DNA from: Sphingomonadales bacterium | GTDB lineage: Bacteria > Pseudomonadota > Alphaproteobacteria > Sphingomonadales > Sphingomonadaceae | Direction of reading: 5' to 3' | Assembly (NCBI GenBank): GCA_028868335.1 | Contig: JAGWUU010000002.1 | Location: forward strand, 1-38,767 | Length of the DNA: 38,767 bases | In this document: one piece after another, positions 7,948 through 13,550 of the stretch | How positions within the stretch are numbered: position 1 is the first letter of the stretch | Layout of the letters: every line of letters starts with the position of its first letter | Notes under the pieces: model-generated | The model's database searches: none | What the model saw: the letters and a program-made list of their open reading frames with translations, nothing else | What the model was told of the DNA's origin: nothing | Program-made: the position numbers and the translations under genes

Positions 7948-9257
7948 TGAAGATCGCAATGGTCGGTTCGGGCTACGTCGGACTGGTTTCGGGTGCCTGC
8001 TTTGCCGACTTCGGCCACGACGTGGTCTGCATCGACAAGGATCCCGCCAAGATCGAGAGCCTGCAAAAGGGCGTGATGCCGATCTATGAGCCGGGGCTGG
8101 CCGAACTGGTCAGTTCCAACGTCAAGGCCGGGCGGCTGACCTTCACGACCGACCTGTCCGAAGGGATTGACGGCGCCGCTGCCATCTTCATCGCGGTGGG
8201 CACTCCCAGCCGCCGCGGCGACGGCCATGCCGACCTGTCGTTCGTCTATGCCGTGGCTCAGGAAGTGGGCGAAAATCTCAAGACCCCAGCGGTGATCGTC
8301 ACCAAGTCGACCGTACCGGTCGGCACCGGCGACGAGGTTGAGCGCATTCTTCGCGAAGCCAATCCGGGCGTCCAGTTCGCCGTCGCTTCGAACCCTGAAT
8401 TCCTGCGCGAAGGCGCCGCGATCGGAGACTTCAAGCGCCCCGACCGAATCGTCATCGGCACCGAGGACGAATGGGCGCGCCACGTCATGACCGAGGTTTA
8501 TCGGCCGCTGTTTCTCAACAAGGCGCCATTGCTGTTCACCAGCCGCCGTTCGTCCGAGCTGATCAAGTACGCCGCCAACGCGTTCCTCGCGGTCAAGATC
8601 ACCTTCATCAACGAGATGGCCGATCTGTGCGAGAAGGTCGGCGCCGATGTTCAGGATATCAGCCGCGGGATCGGCATGGACGGGCGGATCGGGGCGAAGT
8701 TCCTCCACGCCGGACCGGGCTATGGCGGATCGTGCTTCCCGAAGGACACGCTCGCCCTGCTCAAGACGGCGGAGGACTATGAAGCGCCGACCCGGATCGT
8801 CGAGGCTGTGGTCAAGGTAAACGACGCCCGCAAACGTGCGATGGGTCGTAAAGTGATCGAGGCGCTGGGCGGAGCCGATGATGCGCGCGGCAAGAAGGTC
8901 GCGCTGCTTGGCCTGACCTTCAAGCCCAACACCGACGACATGCGCGATGCGCCGTCGATCGCCATCGCCCAGGCGCTGGTCGATGTCGGCGTCGTCGTGG
9001 CCGCCTATGATCCGGAAGGCATGGAACTGGCCCAGCCCCTGATGCCCGACGTGGCGATGCAGACAAACGCCTACGCGGCGATCGAGGATGCCGACGCGGT
9101 GGTGATCGTCACCGAATGGGACGCCTTCCGCGCGCTCGACCTTGACCGCGTAAAGCGGATCGCCAGGGTTCCGGTGCTGGTCGATCTGCGCAATGTCTAT
9201 GACCCCGCCGAAGCGCGGGCCAAGGGCTTCACCTATTCGAGCATCGGGCGGCCGTAA
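7947..9257 (+). CDS. ugd: UDP-glucose 6-dehydrogenase
   Basis: A 436-residue NAD-dependent enzyme that oxidises UDP-glucose to UDP-glucuronate for polysaccharide or lipid precursors. It has the N-terminal Rossmann motif MVGSGYVGLVSGACF, the central NAFLAVKITFINEMADLCE helix, the catalytic-cysteine motif GYGGSCFPKDT and a C-terminal UDP-binding domain (LGLTFKPNTDDMRDAPS). Length fits the family. The ORF track starts at a TTG (7944); the ATG at 7947 has AAAGGAG six bases ahead and gives the usual MKIAMVGSGY start. Its 3' end overlaps the convergent TetR gene by 29 bp, so the two genes share coding DNA on opposite strands. Confidence 0.96.
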   Translation: MKIAMVGSGYVGLVSGACFADFGHDVVCIDKDPAKIESLQKGVMPIYEPGLAELVSSNVKAGRLTFTTDLSEGIDGAAAIFIAVGTPSRRGDGHADLSFVYAVAQEVGENLKTPAVIVTKSTVPVGTGDEVERILREANPGVQFAVASNPEFLREGAAIGDFKRPDRIVIGTEDEWARHVMTEVYRPLFLNKAPLLFTSRRSSELIKYAANAFLAVKITFINEMADLCEKVGADVQDISRGIGMDGRIGAKFLHAGPGYGGSCFPKDTLALLKTAEDYEAPTRIVEAVVKVNDARKRAMGRKVIEALGGADDARGKKVALLGLTFKPNTDDMRDAPSIAIAQALVDVGVVVAAYDPEGMELAQPLMPDVAMQTNAYAAIEDADAVVIVTEWDAFRALDLDRVKRIARVPVLVDLRNVYDPAEARAKGFTYSSIGRP

Positions 9258-9870
9258 TCGCCACACGCAGGGCCTCACCGCGCTCTGGACTCACCAGCCC
9301 CAGCACCAGCAGGCGGCTGCCCCGGGTCATCTCGAGGGCAAAGCGCGCGTCATCCCAGCCTTCGTCCAGCCAGCCTTCGACGGTCGCCGCAACAGTGCGC
9401 AACAGCAGCGGGGTGAGATCGGCGGCGGGCAGAAAGGCGTCGATCTCTCCGGCAGCGATCGCCGCGGCCACCATGCCCGACCACAGCGCCTGCCCTTGGG
9501 CGCTCATCATCTCGCGCAGGGGGTTGCCCTCGATACCGTGCATCGCCGCGTAGAGGCCGCGGTAGAATTCCGGCTCGGCAAGGTAGTGTATCACCACCAG
9601 ATCGACCGCGCTCAGCAGCCGATCGAGCGGCGCGCGCACCGGTTCGGCGGAAAGCCGCACGGCGAAACTCGCAAATTCGTCCTCGACCACCCGGCGCAAG
9701 ACCTCGCTTTTCGAACCGAGCAGGTTGTAGGGCGTCGCCGGACTGACACTGGCGTGCCGGGCAAGCTGCAGCATCGAAAACCCCGCCCCGCCGGTTTCGC
9801 GGATCAGGGCGTGTGCCGCATCGATAATGTTGCGGCGCCGTGCCTCGCGTGCTTCGATAGACAGCGCCAT
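9229..9870 (-). CDS. TetR/AcrR family transcriptional regulator
   Basis: A 213-residue regulator. The N-terminal TetR DNA-binding domain is clear: RRNIIDAAHALIRETGGAGF, then the helix-turn-helix SMLQLARHASVSPATPYNLL and GSKSEVLRRVVEDEF. The ligand domain is divergent, as usual. The start codon overlaps the stop of the ThDP-lyase gene (TGATG), with no good Shine-Dalgarno, implying translational coupling, so regulator and lyase come from one transcript. The likely target is the palindrome at 11639-11656, which lies between the lyase and SDR promoters; this would give autoregulation and control of all four genes. The ligand is unknown, perhaps the pathway substrate or aldehyde product. Confidence 0.92.
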   Translation of the reverse strand: MALSIEAREARRRNIIDAAHALIRETGGAGFSMLQLARHASVSPATPYNLLGSKSEVLRRVVEDEFASFAVRLSAEPVRAPLDRLLSAVDLVVIHYLAEPEFYRGLYAAMHGIEGNPLREMMSAQGQALWSGMVAAAIAAGEIDAFLPAADLTPLLLRTVAATVEGWLDEGWDDARFALEMTRGSRLLVLGLVSPERGEALRVAITAARCSNR

Positions 9871-11600
9871 CAGCTTGCCGGAATGTTCTCGTAATAGGGG
9901 ATCAGCACGTCGTTGCTCCCATCGGCGACCTGCCCGAGCATCGCCTCCGTCACCGGATGGACCACCGCCGCATCGGTCATAACCTCGATGAACGCCGGTC
10001 CGCCGCAGGCAAATGCCCGCTCCAGCGCCGGGGCGAGATCGCCAAAGTGGTCAACCCTCTCGCTATGCAGGCCGAAGGCCCGCGCGATGTTCGCATAGTG
10101 CGTCCCCTCCAGCTTGGTGATGACGTTGTAGTTGCCGCCGAACATGATTTGCTGCCCGTGGATAGACATCCCCCACACCTGATTGTTTAGCACCACCGTC
10201 ACGATCGGCAGATGGTGACGGACCATGGTGTCGAACTCCTGGATGTGGAAGCCCAGCGCCCCATCGCCCGTCAGATGCACGACCCGCCGACCCGGATGGG
10301 CTATCTGCGCGCCGATCGCGAAACCCGGCCCGATCCCCAGGCAACCGAGATAGCCATGGCTGAGGACGCTGGCGGGAATGTTGACCCGCGCCGCAGCTCC
10401 ACCCCACGAGGCTGCTTCCCCACCGTCGAACACGTAGAGCGCGTCGGGGCCAGCCGCTTCGGCAACGGCGCGGGCGGCATGGAAGGGGTGAATCCCCGCG
10501 CCGGTTTCTGCCTGCGGGAAGGCGGAGGCGAACAACCCGTCCGCTGCCAGTGCCTGCGCCCGCCAGGCTTCCAGTCCCTGCGGCCAGCGCCCGGCCAGCG
10601 CCGCTGTCAGCGCTCGGACCGCCTCGGTCGAATCGGCCATGATCGCCAGGTCGACGTCGCGGATCCGCCCGATCTCGCCCGCGTCCGTGTGGATCTGGGC
10701 GAGCCGGGCCGAATGCGGGACGATCGCTCCCGACCGCCCACCGAGCAACAGCCCCAGCTTGCCGCCGAGCAGGATGACCAGATCGGGCGGTTCGATTCCC
10801 ATCATCGGCAACAAGGCCAGGTTGCCTGCGGTCCCACCGTTGGAGGGGTGGTCCGCCGGGAGGACGCCCGCCGCCTGCCCCTTGGTAAAAACCGGGATTG
10901 GCAATTCGGCGGTCAGGTCGCGAAGCGCTGCGGCGGTCGATGCGTTGGCCGCCTCCATTCCGGCGATGATCACCGGACGCTTGGCGGAAAGAACCATGTC
11001 GGCAAGGCGCCGGGCCTCATCCGGTGCGGGGGCAGGATGGGGGCGCACCGTGACGCCGCTGGGCGCGGTTGCGCGATCCGCCGGAACGCTCATGTGCAGA
11101 ACGTCGATCGGGAGTTCCAGCAGCACCGGCCCACGCGGCGCGGTCAGCGCCTTGCGGATCGCCATCGCGGTAAGATCGGCGATCCGTTCGGTCGCGGGGA
11201 TGGACGTGGCCCACTTTACCGCCGGGCGGGCAATGGCGATCTGGTCGATCCCGCCTTGCAGAGGATTGGTTTCCAGCTCTCGCAGCGGCGGCGCGCCGAC
11301 AATGAACAGCACCGGCGAGCCATCCAGCTTCGCATTGGCCATGGCGGAGATCGCATTGGTGAAGCCCGGCCCGGCGGTGACGATGCACACACCCAGCTCG
11401 CCGGTGGACCGCGCAAAGGCATCGGCGGCATGGCCGGCCGCGCTCTCATGGCGGAAATCGATCAGGGCGATGCCTTCCTCGACACAACCCTTGAGCAGCG
11501 CCTCGAGATGGCCGCCATGCAGAGCAAAGGCTTGCTTCACGCCCGCCACCTTGAGCGTCCGCGCCAGAATCTGTCCACCAACCAACCGTTCGCTCGCCAT
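9870..11600 (-). CDS. Thiamine-diphosphate-dependent lyase/carboligase, benzaldehyde lyase-like
   Basis: A 576-residue ThDP enzyme with the acetolactate-synthase fold. The N-terminal PYR domain includes the catalytic Glu (DFRHESAAGHAADAFAR, E52). The C-terminal PP domain has TGDGALGFHIQEFDTM ... VVLNNQVWG, which binds Mg2+ and diphosphate. Compared from memory with Pseudomonas fluorescens benzaldehyde lyase, it shares LHG-x-H (ours H28, H31), RHE-x-AAGHAA, ETN-x-LQ-x-GIDQ (Q115) and the C-terminal HGYLG. The benzaldehyde lyase residues H29 and Q113 therefore appear conserved, while its A28 is Gly here. This favours cleavage or formation of alpha-hydroxyketones over acetolactate synthesis, and no regulatory small subunit gene is nearby. 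ATG with GGAGAGG upstream. Could still be an oxalyl-CoA decarboxylase-like or unassigned member. Confidence 0.8.
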   Translation of the reverse strand: MASERLVGGQILARTLKVAGVKQAFALHGGHLEALLKGCVEEGIALIDFRHESAAGHAADAFARSTGELGVCIVTAGPGFTNAISAMANAKLDGSPVLFIVGAPPLRELETNPLQGGIDQIAIARPAVKWATSIPATERIADLTAMAIRKALTAPRGPVLLELPIDVLHMSVPADRATAPSGVTVRPHPAPAPDEARRLADMVLSAKRPVIIAGMEAANASTAAALRDLTAELPIPVFTKGQAAGVLPADHPSNGGTAGNLALLPMMGIEPPDLVILLGGKLGLLLGGRSGAIVPHSARLAQIHTDAGEIGRIRDVDLAIMADSTEAVRALTAALAGRWPQGLEAWRAQALAADGLFASAFPQAETGAGIHPFHAARAVAEAAGPDALYVFDGGEAASWGGAAARVNIPASVLSHGYLGCLGIGPGFAIGAQIAHPGRRVVHLTGDGALGFHIQEFDTMVRHHLPIVTVVLNNQVWGMSIHGQQIMFGGNYNVITKLEGTHYANIARAFGLHSERVDHFGDLAPALERAFACGGPAFIEVMTDAAVVHPVTEAMLGQVADGSNDVLIPYYENIPAS

Positions 11601-11638
11601 CGCATCCTCTCCATTGTTGCGACTCGCCTCGCCTTATG

Positions 11639-11656
11639 ATTATAGTGCACTATAAT
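11639..11656. promoter_or_regulatory. Perfect 18-bp palindrome with back-to-back -10 boxes (candidate TetR operator)
   Basis: ATTATAGTGCACTATAAT is its own reverse complement; allowing one mismatched pair, symmetry extends to 24 bp (11636-11659). TATAAT occurs at 11651-11656 on the plus strand and at 11644-11639 on the minus strand, so the operator contains the -10 hexamers of both divergent promoters. -35 elements are poor on both strands, which fits activator-free but tightly repressed or atypical promoters. Predicted starts near 11632 (minus) and 11663 (plus) leave short leaders of about 30 and 23 bases. Confidence 0.8.
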
Positions 11657-11685
11657 AATCAGCAAGCCCGATGAAGGAGAGAGGC

Positions 11686-12474
11686 GTGGCGCGGTTCGAC
11701 GGCAAGGTTGCGGTAGTGACGGGTGGAGCTTCGGGTATCGGCGCAGCAACGGTGCGGCTGTTCCACCGAGAAGGGGCAAGCGTGGTGGTCGGCGATCTGG
11801 ATGCCGTGGCAGGCAAGGCCCTCGTCACCGAACTGGGCGATCGCGCCCGGTTCCAGTCCTGCGACGTTTCCCGCTTCTCTGAGGTAGAGGCGTTGATCGG
11901 TCAGGCGACCTCAGCGTTCGGGCGGCTCGACATCCTGTTCAACAACGCGGGGATCGGCAGCTTCTCGCCGATCGAAGCCCTGTCGGTGGAGGATTGGCGC
12001 AAGGTCATCGCGGTCGATCTCGATGCGGTATTCTTTGGCATGAAGGCCGCGATCCCGATCATGCGGGCGCAGGGTGGCGGAGTGATCGTCAGCACCGCTT
12101 CGGCAAGCGGGATCGCCGCGGACTTCGGCTTCGCCGCCTACAATGCCGCAAAGGCCGGAGTGATCAACCTGACCCGCACCGCCGCGATCGACCATGCGCG
12201 TGACGGCATTCGCGTCAACGCGGTCTGTCCCGGTCCGGTCGATACGCCCATCCTTGCCGGAATCCAGGCGGCGCCGGGCCTGCGCAGCGAATGGGAAAAC
12301 CGCGTGCCGATGGGCCGTTTCGCCAGGGCCGAGGAAATAGCGGAGGTTGTCGCCTTCCTTGCCAGTGACGCGGCGAGCTACGTCACCGGAATATCGGTGC
12401 CGGTCGACGGCGGGTTGACCTCGCACACCGGCCAACCCAACCTGTTGCAGATCATGGGAGGAGCAGAGCAATGA
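11686..12474 (+). CDS. Short-chain dehydrogenase/reductase (classical SDR)
   Basis: A 262-residue NAD(P)-dependent oxidoreductase. Motifs in order: TGGASGIG cofactor loop, DVSRF after the second strand, NNAGIG, the catalytic Ser in VSTASASG, YNAAKAG (the YxxxK pair) and PGPVDTP. An acidic residue after beta-2 (VVGDLD) suggests NAD preference. The ORF track begins at ATG 11671, but AAGGAGAG (11674-11681) lies five bases before GTG 11686 and inside any longer protein; GTG gives VARFDGKVAVVTGG, a normal SDR start. It overlaps the following dehydrogenase by ATGA. The substrate is probably a secondary alcohol or ketone in the same pathway as the ThDP lyase. Confidence 0.9.
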   Translation: MARFDGKVAVVTGGASGIGAATVRLFHREGASVVVGDLDAVAGKALVTELGDRARFQSCDVSRFSEVEALIGQATSAFGRLDILFNNAGIGSFSPIEALSVEDWRKVIAVDLDAVFFGMKAAIPIMRAQGGGVIVSTASASGIAADFGFAAYNAAKAGVINLTRTAAIDHARDGIRVNAVCPGPVDTPILAGIQAAPGLRSEWENRVPMGRFARAEEIAEVVAFLASDAASYVTGISVPVDGGLTSHTGQPNLLQIMGGAEQ

Positions 12475-13550
12475 AAGCAGTCGTCCGGCGCGGTGCCGAA
12501 CTGGTCGATACCGAAATTGCCGAACCGGTGCCCGGCGAGGGGCAGGCATTGGTTTCAACGCTGGTCTGCGGCATCTGCGGGTCGGACCTGCATGCGCTCC
12601 ACTATCTCGACCACATGATTGCGCTGACCAAACGCGCGGGCGGAATGGAAACGGTCGATCCCGCGCAGGACGTGGTTTTCGGGCATGAGTTCTGCGCCGA
12701 AGTGCTTGACTACGGGCCCGGCTGCACCGGCGCGATCAAGCCCGGCACTGCCGTCGTCTCCGTCCCCGCCGCCTTCGGACCGCAGGGCGGCGAGCTGGTC
12801 GGCTATTCCAATCGCTTTCCCGGCGGCTTTGCCGAACGCATGGTGTTGACCGAGGCCATGCTTCTGCCTGTCCCCAATGGACTGGACGCCGAACGAGCGG
12901 CGCTGACCGAGCCGATGGCGGTGGGCGAGCATGCGGTCGCTCAAGCTCCGCTCACGCCACGTAGCGTTGCGCTGGTAATTGGGTGTGGGCCGGTTGGCCT
13001 GTCGGTGATCTCGGCGCTCAAGGCGCGCGGCATGGGGCCGGTGATCGCCACCGATTTCTCGCCCGAGCGGCGCAGGGCGGCAGAATTGCTGGGCGCCGAC
13101 GTGGTGCTCGACCCGCGCGAGCAATCACCGCATGACCGGTGGGAAGCGCTCGACGTACCGGCCACCATGGCAAGCCTCTCGACCTCGCAATTGCTGGGCC
13201 GTTCGATCCGCGATGCGGTGATCTTCGAATGCGTCGGCGTGCCCGGGATGATCCAGCAACTGATCGAAAAGGCTCCACCAACGGCCTCCATCATCGTCGT
13301 CGGCGTGTGCATGGAAAGCGATTCGATCGAGCCGTCGCTTGCGATCAACAAGCAGCTCAGCCTGAAGTTCGTCTTTGGCTACAGCCCCGAGGAATTCGCC
13401 GCGACCCTGCATGAAATCGCCGAGGGAGCGCGCGATGTCGCGCCGCTTATCTCGGGAACGGTGGGTCGTTCGGGCGTGAAGGACGCTTTCAAGGCGCTGT
13501 CCGGCGGCGGTGATCGGATCAAGGTGCTGGTCGATCCGCGTCGACCTTGA
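12471..13550 (+). CDS. Zinc-type medium-chain alcohol dehydrogenase lacking the structural-zinc loop
   Basis: A 359-residue MDR oxidoreductase. Catalytic zinc ligands are visible as Cys in VCGICGSDLH and His-Glu in FGHEFCAEV; a further Glu lies in LTEPMAVGEHA. The nucleotide fold begins at VALVIGCGPVGLSVISAL, with the acidic residue of TDFSPERR suggesting NAD. After the GHE motif the chain goes from VSVPAAFGPQGG directly to GYSNRFPGGFAE, without the four closely spaced cysteines of the structural-zinc lobe, as in single-zinc members. The region recalls butanediol/sorbitol-type dehydrogenases. It is translationally coupled to the SDR (ATGA) and ends 10 bp from the 3' end of the oppositely oriented RNase P RNA. 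Confidence 0.88.
   Translation: MKAVVRRGAELVDTEIAEPVPGEGQALVSTLVCGICGSDLHALHYLDHMIALTKRAGGMETVDPAQDVVFGHEFCAEVLDYGPGCTGAIKPGTAVVSVPAAFGPQGGELVGYSNRFPGGFAERMVLTEAMLLPVPNGLDAERAALTEPMAVGEHAVAQAPLTPRSVALVIGCGPVGLSVISALKARGMGPVIATDFSPERRRAAELLGADVVLDPREQSPHDRWEALDVPATMASLSTSQLLGRSIRDAVIFECVGVPGMIQQLIEKAPPTASIIVVGVCMESDSIEPSLAINKQLSLKFVFGYSPEEFAATLHEIAEGARDVAPLISGTVGRSGVKDAFKALSGGGDRIKVLVDPRRP

Follow-up and report, generated by a model that had tools for sequence, protein, structure and literature searches.

What does a perfectly symmetric, A/T-rich sequence do between two divergent operons, which protein does it serve and which promoters does it overlap? The question arises in a stretch of 38,767 nucleotides from a Sphingomonadales bacterium (contig JAGWUU010000002.1), referred to here as the window. 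The palindrome separates a lyase and TetR operon on the minus strand from an SDR and zinc-dependent alcohol dehydrogenase (ADH) operon on the plus strand. The features of the locus are as follows.

9229-9870, minus strand: TetR-family regulator, whose start codon overlaps the lyase stop by one base; TPYNLL helix at residues 46-51.
9870-11600, minus strand: ThDP-dependent lyase of the benzaldehyde lyase family, assigned from domain and structure-relative matches.
11617-11622, plus strand: TTGCGA, proposed -35 box of the SDR-ADH promoter; TTGC in 8 of 8 SDR-bearing loci.
11636-11659, no strand: 24-bp extension ATGATTATAGTGCACTATAATAAT of the palindrome, with 11 of 12 pairs symmetric.
11639-11656, no strand: ATTATAGTGCACTATAAT, proposed TetR operator, from its perfect symmetry and its presence in ten loci.
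11639-11644, minus strand: exact TATAAT, plausible -10 box of the lyase-TetR operon; -35 box not recognisable.
11641-11646, plus strand: TATAGT in the left arm, most likely the SDR-ADH -10 box, 18 bp after TTGCGA.
11651-11656, plus strand: right-arm exact TATAAT, unlikely to be the SDR -10 box; no usable -35 box, and TCTAAT in Novosphingobium SJ636.
11686-12474, plus strand: SDR, meso-2,3-butanediol dehydrogenase-like, with a GTG start at 11686.
12471-13550, plus strand: zinc-dependent alcohol dehydrogenase, overlapping the SDR end.

We consider it highly probable that the palindrome serves the adjoining TetR repressor as its single operator, lying over the SDR-ADH -10 box and very likely the lyase-TetR -10 box, and that both operons would be blocked there until a pathway compound releases TetR. 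The 18-bp palindrome with TATAAT on each strand, claimed in an earlier sequence-only reading, is exact at 11639-11656. The span of 11636-11659 given there describes the imperfect 24-bp extension. Within the window ATTATAGTGCACTATAAT is unique at up to three mismatches, with 0 further matches expected, and it is likewise single-copy in the 3.05-Mb assembly. TATAAT occurs once per strand in the whole window, both times inside the palindrome, and is expected about 1.1 times on both strands together in a Markov copy of the window. The same model yields about 0.4 perfect 18-bp palindromes of any sequence, while A/T-rich ones (at least 14 of 18 positions A/T) appeared in 0 of 60 simulations. By itself, the palindrome is moderately improbable. 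Its significance comes from its conserved position in orthologous clusters, not from symmetry alone.

Orthologous lyases were sought in the family, in the genus and across GTDB species. The loci were reached by the lyase query; a contig scan with the TetR query gave no matches. The sequence-only reading had proposed looking for the same palindrome upstream of orthologous clusters, and indeed ten loci from at least five genera have it at the same site, just upstream of the lyase:

The window: ATTATAGTGCACTATAAT.
Novosphingobium SJ636: ATTATAGTGCACTCTAAT.
MAG BP5: ATTATAGTAGACTATAAT.
Sphingomonad MAG G187: ATTATAGTGCACTATAAT, exact.
Rhodopseudomonas BR0M22 and AAP120: ATTATAGTGCGCTATAAT.
Caulobacteraceae MAG: TTTATAGCGTACTATAAT.
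Polymorphobacter, two loci: TTTATAGTGCAATATAAA and TTTATAGTACGATATAAA.
Phenylobacterium: ATTAGAGTACAATATAAT.

Several genera share its position, symmetry and core sequence, whereas the spacer around it diverges. Most of the palindrome-bearing genomes have one copy of the site. Among same-genus genomes it occurs with at most two mismatches in 4 of 196, three of the four at this cluster; about 2.5 random matches would be expected anywhere in these 750 Mb. Among the loci examined, the palindrome was not found upstream of lyases with about 55% identity or less.

Several further matches were set aside. The fourth same-genus match (G452) lies inside an SDR-like reading frame and not at the lyase cluster, and family matches in three genomes (G071, G195, G189) lie at unrelated genes. 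When 385 class genomes were searched by pattern first, many matches with one or two mismatches came up, mostly in AT-rich genomes. These are taken as chance, because a reversed control pattern also matched often in the 385 genomes and a TPYN-type TetR was not found near the 39 loci inspected.

The promoter layout is clearest on the SDR strand. Each of the eight loci that have a divergent SDR carries TTGC 17-19 bp before TATAGT, starting 21-23 bp ahead of the palindrome across an intervening spacer that varies; the two loci without such an SDR lack it. The arrangement TTGC-N17-19-TATAGT is that of a sigma-70 promoter, with -35 and -10 boxes 16-19 bp apart; Phenylobacterium has TAGAGT in place of TATAGT. 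As a -35 box, TTGC matches the TTGACA consensus weakly (3-4 of 6 positions). By a rough estimate, which treats the lineages as independent although they are only partly so, TTGC would occur there in three further lineages with a chance of about 1e-6. In three of four paralogous Rhodopseudomonas-type loci the layout recurs with a better -35 box, TTGACG-N18-TATAAC. For the right-arm TATAAT of the SDR strand, no -35 box was found at proper spacing. The SDR -10 box is therefore most likely the left-arm TATAGT (11641-11646), because the conserved TTGC box fits its spacing and none fits the right-arm TATAAT.

On the lyase strand, the fitting place holds TATAAT, TATAAA or TCTAAT across the ten loci, and comparison of all ten revealed no conserved -35 box. 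The TATAAT in the window is a plausible lyase -10 box. TATAAA replaces TATAAT in both arms in Polymorphobacter and in one arm in the Caulobacteraceae MAG, and the symmetry persists; conservation extends to the operator symmetry but not to the exact TATAAT.

These comparisons bear on the exact model of the sequence-only reading, in which each perfect TATAAT hexamer serves as the -10 box of one of two opposing promoters. Both hexamers match the consensus and are the sole copies in the window, and the lyase-strand copy reads TATAAT in 6 of 10 loci. The SDR-strand copy, however, lacks a properly spaced -35 box and is TCTAAT in SJ636, where the divergent SDR is kept; the conserved TTGC box fits the left-arm TATAGT instead, and in Polymorphobacter TATAAT gives way to TATAAA. 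In this form we regard the model as unlikely: its lyase half remains plausible, albeit without a conserved -35 box, and its SDR half gives way to TATAGT. The design had also been called unusually compact, which overstates the case. TetR regulators usually have operators over overlapping divergent promoters, as in Tn10 tetR/tetA, and control of two divergent promoters from one operator is common among them.

The adjoining regulator scores 26.2 bits against the Pfam TetR_N profile (cutoff 24), which places a helix-turn-helix at its N-terminus. Its AlphaFold model (pLDDT 92) is all-helical, and Foldseek matches it to EthR2, RolR, KstR and Rv0078. The recognition helix is predicted at residues 46-51. 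Eleven TetR orthologues share an invariant S43-P-A-T-P-Y-N-L50 (SPATPYNL), together with G52 and K54. The TetR gene lies directly behind the lyase in nine of the ten palindrome loci. Novosphingobium KCTC 2891 has a rearranged cluster, a single operon that follows a different TetR, and the palindrome is absent there. More distant TetRs keep TPYN[LV], and kindred TATA-N6-TATA palindromes are located near their genes (for example ATTATAGCGCGCTATAAA, CTTATAGCGCGCTATAAA and AATATAATGCATTATAAA); a related palindrome, GATATAACGCGTTATATC, occurs in paralogous Rhodopseudomonas clusters. The palindrome thus lies in the promoter region and is conserved with its regulator, with two exceptions. G187 has the exact palindrome before the lyase and no orthologous TetR adjoining it, and in Hyphomonas the TetR helix is identical and no clear palindrome was seen.

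The first exception would fit a palindrome that binds another regulator, the adjoining TetR being merely a neighbour. We regard this as unlikely: in KCTC 2891 the palindrome has gone along with the TetR, the recognition helix stays invariant alongside the operator, and similar helices go with similar palindromes in distant relatives. G187 itself encodes its closest TetR relative (43%) on another contig, with the same SPATPYNL helix. We therefore regard the palindrome as a well-supported putative operator of the TetR. The earlier claim that such an operator controls both arms gains support from its conservation, its loss where the TetR is replaced, the invariant recognition helix and the mostly single-copy site.

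A chance palindrome, or an AT-rich divergent promoter without an operator, could draw on the roughly 0.4 perfect 18-bp palindromes expected per window, but is very improbable given position, symmetry and core conserved across several genera while the spacer diverges. The perfect self-complementarity might suggest that the palindrome acts between the operons as an RNA hairpin or terminator, but this is equally remote: a terminator-like site was not found, arms rich in A/T with neither loop nor T tract would hardly form a good hairpin, and the site stands where both transcripts are expected to begin rather than within them.

The sequence itself shows the conservation, the promoter layout and the identity of the TetR; that the TetR binds the operator, represses and responds to a ligand is what we infer. 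We postulate that a TetR dimer covers the TATA-N6-TATA half-sites, which would contain the SDR-ADH -10 box (TTGCGA-N18-TATAGT) and very likely also the opposing lyase-TetR -10 box. Bound TetR would block RNA polymerase at both promoters, and tetR would limit its own synthesis, because it is co-transcribed with the lyase. A pathway substrate or product, presumably an acyloin or its aldehydes, would release TetR, so that both operons would be induced together.

The lyase has three ThDP-enzyme domains and the catalytic His, Glu and Gln, and its closest solved relatives are benzaldehyde lyase (BAL; PDB 2ag0, 3iae, 3d7k; the best, E about 1e-118) and formolase. Formolase is an engineered derivative of benzaldehyde lyase. 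BAL His29, Glu50 and Gln113, which we take to be catalytic, align with H31, E52 and Q115, to which we presume these roles carry over. The positions of BAL Trp163 and Ala480 are occupied by Ile and Met; therefore, the acyloin substrate may differ. The SDR is nearest in likeness to 2,3-butanediol dehydrogenases. Its GTG start at 11686 follows AAGGAG (11674-11679), and orthologues favour it over ATG 11671. The automatic SDR start at ATG 11671 overlaps the likely ribosome-binding site (window 11671-11688). A reasonable pathway is that a diol is oxidised to an acyloin, which is then cleaved to aldehydes.

Compared to known systems, the arrangement resembles Tn10 TetR/tetA: an autoregulated helix-turn-helix TetR, a palindrome over core promoter elements in a divergent intergenic region, and local control. 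Unlike in Tn10, tetR here ends one arm, following the lyase, rather than divergently adjoining the operator, and there is one operator with its own half-site, TATAGTGC, instead of two. KstR of Mycobacterium tuberculosis (5fmp, 5ua1) matches the fold of the predicted TetR model and binds an 18-bp DNA operator in structure 5ua1, but shares only about 20% identity. KstR governs a global cholesterol regulon, in contrast to the one local site here.

In the literature, we found no published use of this site, nor a paper that links benzaldehyde lyase with a TetR and an operator. The locus provides a defined, conserved putative operator for an uncharacterised TetR of a benzaldehyde-lyase-type cluster, which makes it a candidate component of alphaproteobacterial biosensors for aldehydes or acyloins. 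Efforts to decode the DNA specificity of TetR proteins could draw on the linked series of recognition helices and operators. More tentatively, the TPYN[LV] TetR clade may use TATA-N6-TATA palindromes whose arms are promoter -10 boxes, with operator and promoter possibly co-evolving as one element that is carried with acyloin-cleavage clusters between alphaproteobacterial orders.

Further observations concern the wider distribution of these clusters. In Rhodopseudomonas, which belongs to a different order, the lyases share 78% identity, and both gene order and operator are the same (L100, L101), which suggests horizontal transfer of the whole cluster. Rhodopseudomonas-type genomes (L110, L111, L113, L136) also hold a paralogous TetR / SDR-lyase-ADH cluster with GATATAACGCGTTATATC and a TTGACG -35 box, and AAP120 carries both cluster types. 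On G187 contig C60 (L057, 4-1832), the lyase and exact palindrome sit beside genes resembling those for a relaxase and a MobC-type mobilisation protein, which suggests that a mobile element is involved and that the divergent SDR was lost. Lyases of about 48% identity (L051-L055) have other upstream palindromes, for example GAGATATTGCATGCAATATCTC and ATTGTATGCAAT, which suggest a different regulator. In Lokiarchaeota MAGs (L138-L140), relatives of the lyase (about 30%) precede an SDR.
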